This document shows, one piece after another, positions 21,675 to 27,416 of a DNA stretch of 64,000 bases. Within the stretch, counting starts at the first letter, position 1, and each line of letters starts with the position of its first letter. The stretch is from Oceanicaulis alexandrii DSM 11625 (GTDB taxonomy: Bacteria; Pseudomonadota; Alphaproteobacteria; Caulobacterales; Maricaulaceae), in contig NZ_ATUP01000001.1 of NCBI RefSeq assembly GCF_000420265.1, positions 2,418,001 to 2,482,000 of the forward strand, written 5' to 3'. The position numbers and the translations under genes are program-made. The notes below the pieces were generated by a model, which was not told where the DNA came from, ran no database searches, and worked only from the letters and a program-made list of their open reading frames with translations.

Positions 21675-22273
21675 CCGTGCATCTGTATTACAACCCGCAA
21701 TCGCGGGCGGTGATGACGCTGTGGCTGCTGGAAGAGCTGGGCGTGTCCTACGACCTCAAGCCGGTCGACTATGAAGACGGCTCGATGCGGTCTGAAAGCT
21801 TCCTGGCGCTCAACCCGATGGGCAAGATCCCGGTGATCGTCGACGGCGAAACCGTGGTCACCGAGACCGTCGCCATCGCGCTGTATCTGGCGGACAAGTA
21901 CAAGGACAACGCCGATCTGGCGCCGGGGATTGATGACCCGCGCCGCGGCGAATACCTGCGCTGGATCGTCTTTCAGGCGGCCTCCATCGAGCCGGCCATG
22001 CTGCAGGCGGGCATGAAGTTTGAAACCAATCAGCGCTCGGCGGGCTGGGGCAATGTCCAGCTGGTGGCGAAGGTGCTGGAAAACCGCCTGTCGCTGGCGA
22101 ACCCGTACCTGTTCGGCGACTGGTTCACCGCGGCGGATCTGATTATGGGCGGGGCGGTGAACTGGGCGATCCAGTTCGACATGTTCCCCAAGACCCCGGC
22201 GCTTAGCGCCTACGCCCAGCGGATCACCGAACGGCCCGCCTTCCAGCGCGCGTTCGCCACCCAGAATTCCTGA
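21671..22273 (+). CDS. Glutathione S-transferase family protein
   Basis: 200 residues with a thioredoxin-fold N-domain ([18 protein letters not shown]; the Ser or Tyr near the N-terminus would be the catalytic residue), the GSH-binding cis-Pro segment MGKIPVI and the [16 protein letters not shown] motif with its ETxAI pattern, then an all-helical C-domain with [13 protein letters not shown]. Wedged between glyQ and glyS with a 4-base overlap to glyQ, so it is co-transcribed with them; substrate unknown. Confidence 0.9.
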
Positions 22274-22302
22274 TTTAGACCTTTCGAGTAACGCATCTCC
22301 CC

Positions 22303-24696
22303 ATGGCCCAGTTTCTGTTTGAAATCTTCTGCGAGGAAATCCCCGCGCGCATGCAGGCGCGCGCTGAGGACGACCTCAAACGCCTGATGTCTGAGCGCCT
22401 GAAAGAGGCGGGCCTGAATTGGGACAGCCTTGAAGCCTTTTCCGGCCCGCGTCGTCTGGGCCTTGTGATCGAAGGCCTGCCGCACAAGACCGCCGACGTG
22501 CGCGAAGAGCGCAAGGGGCCGCGCACCGACGCGCCGGAAAAAGCGCTGGAAGGCTTCATGCGCGGCGCCGGGATCGACAGCCTGGATCAATGCAAGATCG
22601 AAGAGGGCAAAAAGGGCAGCTTCTATATCGCCGTCATCGAAAAGCCGGGGCGCGAAACCGCCCAGGTGATCTCAGAGGCCGTGCCGGAGATCATCAAGAG
22701 CTTCCCCTGGCCCAAATCCATGAAGTTCGGCGAGGGCGAGCGCGCCCAACGCTGGGTGCGCCCGCTGCGCTCGCTGATCTGTCTGCTGGACGGTCAGGTG
22801 ATCGACACGGAAGTGTTTGGCATCACATCGGGCAAGACCACCGATGGTCACCGCGTGCACGGCGCCGGCCCGTTCGAGGTGTCTGACTTTGCCGATTACG
22901 AGGCCAAGCTGCGCGCAAACGGCGTGATCTTGCGCCGGGATGAGCGCAAACAGCTGGTGCTCGAGGGCGCCCGCCGCGTCTGTGAAGAGGCGGGGCTGGA
23001 GCTGATCGAGGATCAGGGGCTTCTGGAAGAGGTGACGGGGCTCGTTGAGCATCCGGCGCCGATCCTGGGCGATATGGACCCGGACTTTCTCGATCTGCCG
23101 CCTGAAGTCATCGCGCTGACTATGAAGACGCACCAGAAATACTTCGCGGTGCGTGACCCGAAATCCGGCAAGCTGACCAGCAAGTTCGTCGTCCTCGCCA
23201 ATCAGGACGCGCCCGATGGCGGCAAGGCGATCGCGGCGGGTAATGCCCGCGTGCTGTCCGCCCGCCTGTCAGACGCCCGCCATTTCTGGGATCTTGATCG
23301 CAAGACCGGGCTGGAGGCGATGGCGTCCGAGCTCTCCAAGGTCACCTTCCACGAAAAGCTGGGCACGGTGGCCGACAAGGTCGAACGCGTCGCCAAGCTG
23401 GCGCGCGAGTTGGCCCCGGTCGTGGGCGCCGATGCGGACATGGCCGAAAAGGCCGCGCGCTTGGCGAAGGCCGATCTGGTCAGCCAGATGGTCTATGAAT
23501 TCCCCGAGCTTCAGGGCGCCATGGGCCGCTATTATGCGCTGGATAAAATCTCTGAATCCCCGGCCGAGCGAAGCGAGAGCCGGGGCCTCGGAGATCGGTC
23601 TGCACAAGGTCCCGGCTCGGCTTCGCCGTCCGGGAATTCAGGTGTGTTTGAGGGTCTGTCAAAAGACCAGATCGAACAGATCGCCGACGCCATCAAGGAC
23701 CATTACAAGCCCCAAGGCCCGTCAGACGCCGTGCCGACCGCGCCGGTCAGCGCCGCGGTCGCTTTGGCGGACAAGCTGGATACGCTGGTGGGCTTCTGGG
23801 CCATTGATGAAAAACCGACCGGTTCGAAAGACCCGTTCGCCCTGCGCCGCGCTGCGCTGGGGGTGATCCGGATTTTGTTAGTAGAAGAAATTCGTATACG
23901 TCTCCATTCGGTAAGTGCGACACACTGGTTGGATTTTGCGTCAGCAATCAATACGAGTTGGGTACGCGATATTCGGTCAAGTTTGCACTTGCCAGAGGGT
24001 GTTGAGCTACAGCTCTCTTTCGATGCTACTATGCTACCTTTTGCCGCTGAAAGTACAGGATCAGTTTCTGGTGCTGCGGAAGATGTTGTTCGTGCGGTGA
24101 ACGAAACTCTTTTGTGCAAGACCAAAGACCTCCTCGCCTTCTTCGCCGACCGCCTGAAAGTCCACCTCAAGGACGAAGGCGTGAAATACGACGTCATCGA
24201 CGCCGTGTTCGCGCTGGGCGATGACGATCTGGTGCGCGTCACCAAGAAGGCCCGCGCGCTGCAAGCCTTCATGAACACAGATGACGGTCAGGCGCTGCTG
24301 CAGGGCTATCGCCGCGCGGCGAACATTCTGGCGGCGGAAGAGAAGAAGGGCTTTGATCTGGCCTCGGCCCGCGTCGAAGCCGTTGAGGGCTCGGACGTGG
24401 ACACCGACGCCGCCCTGATGATCGCCATCGCCAAGACCGCGGAGGCCGCTGAAGAGCGCGCCTTGATCGCGGCCATCGAGGGCGCGGACGAAGTGGCCTC
24501 GGTTGCTCTGTCCAAGGAAGACTTTGAAGGCGCCATGTCGGCGCTGTCGCAGCTGCGCGAACCGGTCGACGCCTTCTTCGAGGCGGTTGTCGTGAATGAC
24601 AAAGACGATATGGTGCGTCGCAATAGATTGTTGCTGTTGTCGCGGATTCGCGCGGCGGCCGATCAAGTGGCGGATTTCTCACGGTTGGAAGGGTAG
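22303..24696 (+). CDS. glyS: Glycyl-tRNA synthetase beta subunit with two unusual inserts
   Basis: tRNA-binding subunit of glycyl-tRNA synthetase. 797 residues, longer than the usual roughly 690. The standard landmarks are present: FEIFCEEIPARMQ at the start, FSGPRRLGL near 46, MKTHQKYFAVRD near 275, an HD-like region, KLDTLVGFWAIDEKPTGSKDPFALRRAALGVIR near 485-517 (quoted here only as a span) and DLLAFFADRLKV. Two extras explain the length. About 30 residues (417-446) are encoded by a palindromic element at 23552-23641. Some 80 residues (about 525-605) come from DNA of about 47% GC. Both are in frame, so the gene is probably still functional. Confidence 0.95.
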   Translation: MAQFLFEIFCEEIPARMQARAEDDLKRLMSERLKEAGLNWDSLEAFSGPRRLGLVIEGLPHKTADVREERKGPRTDAPEKALEGFMRGAGIDSLDQCKIEEGKKGSFYIAVIEKPGRETAQVISEAVPEIIKSFPWPKSMKFGEGERAQRWVRPLRSLICLLDGQVIDTEVFGITSGKTTDGHRVHGAGPFEVSDFADYEAKLRANGVILRRDERKQLVLEGARRVCEEAGLELIEDQGLLEEVTGLVEHPAPILGDMDPDFLDLPPEVIALTMKTHQKYFAVRDPKSGKLTSKFVVLANQDAPDGGKAIAAGNARVLSARLSDARHFWDLDRKTGLEAMASELSKVTFHEKLGTVADKVERVAKLARELAPVVGADADMAEKAARLAKADLVSQMVYEFPELQGAMGRYYALDKISESPAERSESRGLGDRSAQGPGSASPSGNSGVFEGLSKDQIEQIADAIKDHYKPQGPSDAVPTAPVSAAVALADKLDTLVGFWAIDEKPTGSKDPFALRRAALGVIRILLVEEIRIRLHSVSATHWLDFASAINTSWVRDIRSSLHLPEGVELQLSFDATMLPFAAESTGSVSGAAEDVVRAVNETLLCKTKDLLAFFADRLKVHLKDEGVKYDVIDAVFALGDDDLVRVTKKARALQAFMNTDDGQALLQGYRRAANILAAEEKKGFDLASARVEAVEGSDVDTDAALMIAIAKTAEAAEERALIAAIEGADEVASVALSKEDFEGAMSALSQLREPVDAFFEAVVVNDKDDMVRRNRLLLLSRIRAAADQVADFSRLEG
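23552..23641. repeat. 90-bp palindromic element inserted in frame in glyS
   Basis: The ends CTGAATCCCCGG (23552-23563) and CCGGGAATTCAG (23630-23641) are inverted with one mismatch. Inside are two further hairpins: CCCCGGC/GCCGGGG (23558-23564 with 23579-23585) and TCCCGG/CCGGGA (23610-23615 with 23630-23635). The length is exactly 30 codons without a stop. It falls in the loop where ordinary GlyS reads directly from the YYAL segment into the ADAIKDHYKP segment. The layout is like mobile palindromic repeats that settle in genes in Rickettsia; identity with a known family is not claimed. Confidence 0.75.
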
Positions 24697-24749
24697 GCGC
24701 GGGGGCGTCTGCTCTTTTCTCCGTTTTGACGATCAGGAAGGTGAGCCCC

Positions 24750-27416
<2,667 letters not shown>

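Follow-up and report, generated by a model that had tools for sequence, protein, structure and literature searches.

The closest described systems include the Rickettsia palindromic elements (RPEs) and the REPs, palindromic repeats that can lie inside genes. In one report, RPEs are dispersed palindromes of about 100–150 bp, some of which lie in frame in metabolic genes with a conserved peptide (PMC10969869), and in another, orthologous genes carry different families (RPE-4, RPE-6, and RPE-7) at sites that coincide or lie close together (PMC3767692). A third report describes intragenic REPs in a number of species, with tRNA synthetase genes among those affected in X. oryzae, E. lithoralis, and S. 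alaskensis; in-gene copies of the REPs that carry a GTAG/CGTC tag span 20–82 codons, and different REPs are found at approximately the same site of Xanthomonas recB (PMC3733652). Searches confined to open-access PMC articles listed none that describes palindromes within glyS or within the group studied here.

We analyzed a palindromic element inside the glyS gene of the genome designated G000 (other G numbers denote relatives, and L numbers denote loci), whose host is Maricaulaceae-like according to its nearest named GlyS records, in a window of 64,000 nucleotides that comprises the whole stretch of DNA under study. The gene is an open reading frame on the plus strand (22303..24696) that encodes a glycyl-tRNA synthetase beta subunit of 797 amino acids with an in-frame insert, and the protein matches Pfam PF02092 (E=2e-182) and PF05746 as well as NCBIfam TIGR00211 (E=3e-215). 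The element itself (23552..23641, plus strand) is 90 nt long, compared with about 105 nt for the family consensus, and reads CTGAATCCCCGGC...GTCCGGGAATTCAG. As the first-pass annotation had proposed, it consists of two hairpins with outer inverted ends, all on the plus strand: inner hairpin 1, CCCCGGC...GCCGGGG (23558..23585), and inner hairpin 2, TCCCGG...CCGGGA (23610..23635), the core of each having a single match in the window, are enclosed by a left end CTGAAT (23552..23557; family counterpart TGAAAC) and a right end ATTCAG (23636..23641; family counterpart ATTCA). The minimum-energy RNA fold of the 90 nt is one long hairpin in which both arms pair together, with a fold energy of -61.7 kcal/mol versus a shuffled mean of -36.2 (z -7.96), and none of 200 shuffles reached this stability. 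The glyS frame stays open through the palindrome with no stop codon. The earlier description of exactly 30 codons without a stop was right about the length and the open frame but not about the start, since the first base of the palindrome is the second base of a codon. In an alignment with 29 relatives, the whole long loop (site 1, residues 413–460; 23539..23682, plus strand) replaces a loop of 9–10 residues in the nearest insert-free GlyS. The nearest relatives, G014 and G007, which are 93% identical over GlyS residues 1–414/415, both lack the insert, as the first-pass annotation had expected of an alignment; the difference from them is 39 residues rather than the 30 it implied, made up of the 90-nt palindrome and about 27 nt of surrounding sequence.

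We found that the element belongs to a dispersed family, as had been predicted from the sequence. Besides glyS itself, a BLAST search of the genome with the 90 nt gave full or partial matches at nine places, of which one was weak (E 0.13), and some copies lie within genes (glyS and an HTH-containing ORF). Copies from G000, G014, and G007, 25 in all, were aligned with a mean column identity of 84%. Their consensus, TGAAACCCCGGCCAAGCGCAGCGCAGAGCCGGGGCCTCC...GAGGTCCCGGG...CCCGGGAATTCA, is about 105 nt long and has terminal inverted repeats, TGAAACCCCGG / CCGGGAATTCA (TGAAaCCCCGG/CCGGGaaTTCA), that match imperfectly. With a covariance model built from this alignment and 150 candidates scored per genome, we counted at least 30 strand-wise matches at no fewer than 14 distinct places in G000, glyS included. 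Across six order-level relatives, the same model gave at least 12 matches in G041 and at least 25 in G039, and no match among the 150 candidates each in G037, G038, G040, and G042. When nine other G000 copies were read against ORF lists, eight lay within 20 bp of a gene 3' end, four of these between convergent genes; the position of the ninth, at L006, is ambiguous. Both-side changes were seen in 2 of 26 base pairs, the number of covarying pairs being small because the copies are so alike, and we therefore dropped covariation as proof of RNA function, as it carries no weight either way. The glyS copy is more diverged than most other copies of the family and 15 nt shorter, 12 of these forming a single mid-element gap. 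Its identity to other copies is up to 92% on one arm in BLAST but only 72–75% over the full length, which argues for an old or adapted copy rather than a fresh insertion.

To identify in-gene copies beyond glyS, we filtered 63 contexts from five genomes (13 in G000, 25 in G009, 10 in G002, 6 in G014, and 9 in G007; glyS copies excluded) for an ORF that spans the element, with at least 40 codons on each side and a GC3 above 0.7. Two contexts passed, an HTH-containing ORF in G000 and an MmeI-like methyltransferase in G009. Together with the glyS copies at site 1 (G000 and G009) and site 3 (G026), this gives five in-gene copies, all of which have the same orientation and frame and the peptide pattern E-x-P-[AD]...SR-[DG]-L. 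Among 54 other copies, between 10 and 38 have an open frame, depending on which of the six frames is read; computed from these frame-open frequencies, five out of five copies would agree by chance with a probability of about 0.001, or of 0.007 when the two site-1 copies of glyS are treated as one. The HTH-containing ORF, which holds the second in-gene copy of G000, lies on the minus strand (L268 1153-2049; G000:C1:2277803-2278699). Related ORFs are present in G014 and G007; the one in G007 also holds a model match, and the G014 pieces that match it are several partial stretches side by side. The MmeI-like DNA methyltransferase gene of G009 (L274 956-3106, minus strand) carries its in-frame element copy in a linker.

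An AlphaFold2 model of GlyS (38 aligned sequences; mean pLDDT 87) predicts residues 424–453 as a low-confidence coil between a helix that ends at 423 and one that starts at 454, with block pLDDT values of 46–64 across residues 421–450. By sequence, the insert site maps between residues 417 and 422 of chain 7yse_C, which we take to be the E. coli protein. The claim of a surface loop of an essential enzyme is thus supported as far as a predicted disordered loop goes, and the insert-bearing loop would be surface-exposed. That a hairpin with paired outer ends sits in a coding gene also brings to mind inserts that are removed after transcription or skipped by the ribosome, such as an intein, an intron, or the byp elements of mitochondria, which are ribosome-skipped inserts. 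We give almost no credence to this explanation here: the frame is open and in register through the parsed long loops, even if detection based on ORFs under-counts broken ones, and no RNA family match came near its gathering score. A structured RNA or riboswitch was likewise rejected, as the best Rfam matches in window positions 22000–25000 were far below their gathering scores. Separately, we observed a second variable in-frame segment at window positions 23884–24129 (GlyS residues 528–609), with a G+C content of 0.46 versus 0.64 in the rest of the gene. The G+C content of this segment is below that of the rest of the gene in all 41 GlyS parsed for it; its length ranges from 16 to 154 aa, with little visible similarity even among congeners.

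To see how common the long loop is, we compared 110 GlyS proteins from the alphaproteobacteria, the class to which E. lithoralis and S. alaskensis also belong. The sample combined the 30 loci that scored best among 61 genomes (from G000 and 29 relatives) with 80 named loci (the best 80 of 572), and its frequencies are therefore not unbiased. One locus (L072), in which the contig ends inside the insert, was left out, giving 109 parsed loops, two of which (L070 and L097) are identical at the loop; a stricter pattern missed 40 of the 110, and a looser one regained 39 of these. The site-1 loop measures 8–13 aa in 83 of 109 GlyS and 32–82 aa in the remaining 26, long loops being detected through ORFs so that broken frames would be under-counted. 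We thus rejected the insert as an ordinary GlyS feature, in keeping with the statement that ordinary GlyS lacks these residues; the element is neither single-copy nor present in most GlyS of the order. Strongly stable folds (z < -3) were found for 21 out of 26 long loops versus 5 out of 104 controls, which were same-length windows of the same genes drawn from a non-reproducible seed; the mean z was -4.95 over all 26 long loops and -0.59 in the controls. The other five long loops have no clear palindrome (z -0.8 to -2.9). Named records with a long loop include Brevundimonas (L095, L096, L097, and L101), Hyphomonadaceae (L156), and Frigidibacter (L164, z -2.9). On a 35-row GlyS tree, insert presence and absence changed at least 10 times, the tree being a quick one, built with the variable columns removed, that left 11 of its 32 inner branches open and joined two long branches. 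In a class-wide sample, 73 of 86 genomes had a GlyS match, 41 of which aligned in one piece; the alignments of 40 of these 41 span at most 716 codons and that of the other (G103) spans 734, suggesting that the insert is uncommon outside the group.

Palindromes are also found elsewhere in GlyS. At site 3 (near residue 695), they occur in G001, G008, G009, G010, and G026 (z -4.0 to -8.2), and the GlyS of G070 has two palindromic inserts, one close to residue 375 (z -8.3) and one at site 3 or close to it (z -5.7). The latter protein (L264), from another family of the class, has an 874-aa frame, and its residue-375 site was not seen to be used in the group studied here. The stability of the RNA fold and the repeated occurrence of strong hairpins at the same codon position of relatives would fit a hairpin that acts in the glyS mRNA, slowing the ribosome or being cut by RNase III and thereby regulating GlyS synthesis or folding, and the location of other copies near gene 3' ends is as expected of transcribed elements. 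However, with short loops in most of the parsed GlyS and nearly all one-piece alignments of the class, with no insert in the sister species G014 and G007, and with no Rfam family near its gathering score, we consider such a role very unlikely.

The first-pass annotation had stated that one such palindrome in this lineage would be a new case. The insert is not a lone case: palindromes of other families fill the same GlyS loop in relatives. Family A, defined by the G010-type insert (HPTPALPSRGG...SPSGEGRGG peptide type), has at least 24 matches in G001, 34 in G006, 62 in G010, and 59 in G009, and none in G000. Family B, defined by the G011-type insert, has at least 38 in G011, 32 in G013, 69 in G003, 31 in G008, and 34 in G026, and again none in G000 (all strand-wise, partial matches included). 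The insert of G038 has at least nine strand-wise matches in its own genome, two of which are the insert itself on either strand, the rest being partial. G008, with its many family B matches, one of them at glyS site 3, has a short site-1 loop. All seven insert-bearing congeners parsed share, after the insert, a tail that is constant in length and similar in sequence (type xLSxxDRQQVADAI; in G000, GLSKDQIEQIADAI); insert-free congeners have 10 residues there. We dropped the idea that the LSxxD tail is part of the insert, as an alignment of this tail with AGLDP of the insert-free alleles is possible; from the sequences, the common tail may point to a single old insertion or to the loop being under selection. 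Within a supported trio (G011, G013, and G006), near-identical tails follow family B, family B inverted, and family A, respectively, which looks like replacement in place.

These observations bear on an alternative history in which glyS acquired a long loop at an early stage of this group, in one or a few events, after which palindromes were swapped in place and insert-free alleles spread by recombination. Such an ancient insertion would account for the same-length tail in insert-bearing species of several genera, for the trio with different palindromes, and for a recombination tract in G012, a genome with a short loop within a clade of long ones. At residues 381–527, the DNA of G012 is 87–94% identical to G000/G014/G007 and 74–84% identical to G011/G013/G006/G001. 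In other windows the values are 69–84% and 81–96%, respectively, except at residues 351–380, which are far from both sets (72–74% and 64–72%); in finer windows, identity to G001 also falls to 65% at residues 705–750. Judging from this switch in identity, the short loop of G012 probably arose by recombination with an insert-free type of allele. On the other hand, the insert of G000 lies on the haplotype of its insert-free neighbours (AMGRYYAL..KDHY; flanks 89–96% identical to G014), an arrangement that speaks for a separate gain in G000. Convergence may also explain the tail, since a helix cap may be needed when the loop is longer, and parsimony counts do not distinguish gain from loss. We consider an ancient insertion possible and lean mildly against it; since it concerns history, it is compatible with the element being a passenger.

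A further point cited for swapping in place comes from an intergenic locus, where three sister species have three different palindromes. At L004, between convergent ORFs that are presumably ribF and rsmD-like, G000 carries this family, and G014 and G007 each carry another palindrome of similar size (single folds of -85 and -91 kcal/mol, unshuffled). The three palindromes lie at L004 1486-1613, L316 ~1980-2143, and L317 ~1341-1501. At L002, extra repeats are present in G000 where both sisters have a short terminator-like hairpin alone, and at L005, L008, and L012 G007 has the same family, as does G014 at L008. Because of L004 and the GlyS loop of the trio, we also considered that the sites rather than the sequences are conserved, with palindromes of different families being swapped at fixed docking sites both in genes and between them; this seems improbable to us.

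Overall, our findings make it probable that the element in glyS is a dispersed palindrome that persists in frame as a selfish or neutral passenger in a tolerant, recurrently used loop. We propose that a member of the ~105-bp repeat family came in frame into glyS at a loop between two helices and would be translated there into a disordered, Ser-, Pro-, Gly-, and Arg-rich peptide. The copy may persist because the loop tolerates a disordered peptide, and family copies often have open frames. The same loop would be a recurrent landing place, occupied in relatives by palindromes of other families; in the two cases tested, the occupying family is abundant in the genome concerned. One congener has its short loop in a tract of homologous recombination with the insert-free type of allele. 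We infer that the cell makes this peptide and is not harmed by it, that the glyS copy is a functionless passenger, and that it came by insertion and not by taking the place of an earlier occupant. A simple passenger fits less well with the shared tail, the swapped palindromes of the trio, the five long loops with no clear palindrome, the short loop of G008 despite its family B copies, and the diverged state of the glyS copy.

Repeated colonisation of a single loop of an essential gene by unrelated palindromes provides a natural series in which the path from selfish DNA to protein can be followed. The same series lends itself to tracing the spread of insert-free alleles by recombination and to asking whether one short palindrome replaces another in place. 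It also calls for caution in annotation, because peptides of the family A type in conserved enzymes can be translated repeats rather than domains.

In comparison with known systems, the family resembles the RPEs in being a dispersed palindrome of similar size with in-frame in-gene copies, and in the one preferred orientation and frame of those copies. It differs from them in its lineage and in that few of the filtered contexts (2 out of 63 in five genomes, glyS excluded) are in genes. The proposal of a Rickettsia-type in-gene palindrome new to this lineage was borne out as to dispersal and presence in genes, but in-gene palindromes reach beyond Rickettsia according to PMC3733652. With the GTAG/CGTC REPs of that report, the family shares palindromes that are often paired, lie near gene 3' ends, and occasionally occur in genes. 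We nevertheless rejected a RAYT-driven REP: the family ends, TGAAAC and AATTCA in the 25-copy alignment, lack the GTAG/CGTC tag, and G000 has no match to PF01797 (Y1 transposase, RAYT), to which the search for a parent IS was confined and which was found in 5 out of 14 control genomes by the same search. Bacterial MITEs are similar in size (~105 bp) and in their imperfect terminal inverted repeats, and at one locus the element is present in G000 and missing from both sisters, as for a MITE. A MITE with target duplication was rejected, as none of 59 copies has a target-site duplication of 4–9 bp and shorter lengths are near chance. In summary, RPEs and REPs already provide examples of palindromes that lie in frame within genes, and of different families that use one site. 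What is distinct here is the family itself, which has neither a RAYT nor a tag, the breadth of recurrence at one loop of an essential enzyme, and the tracing of one short GlyS loop to a recombination tract.
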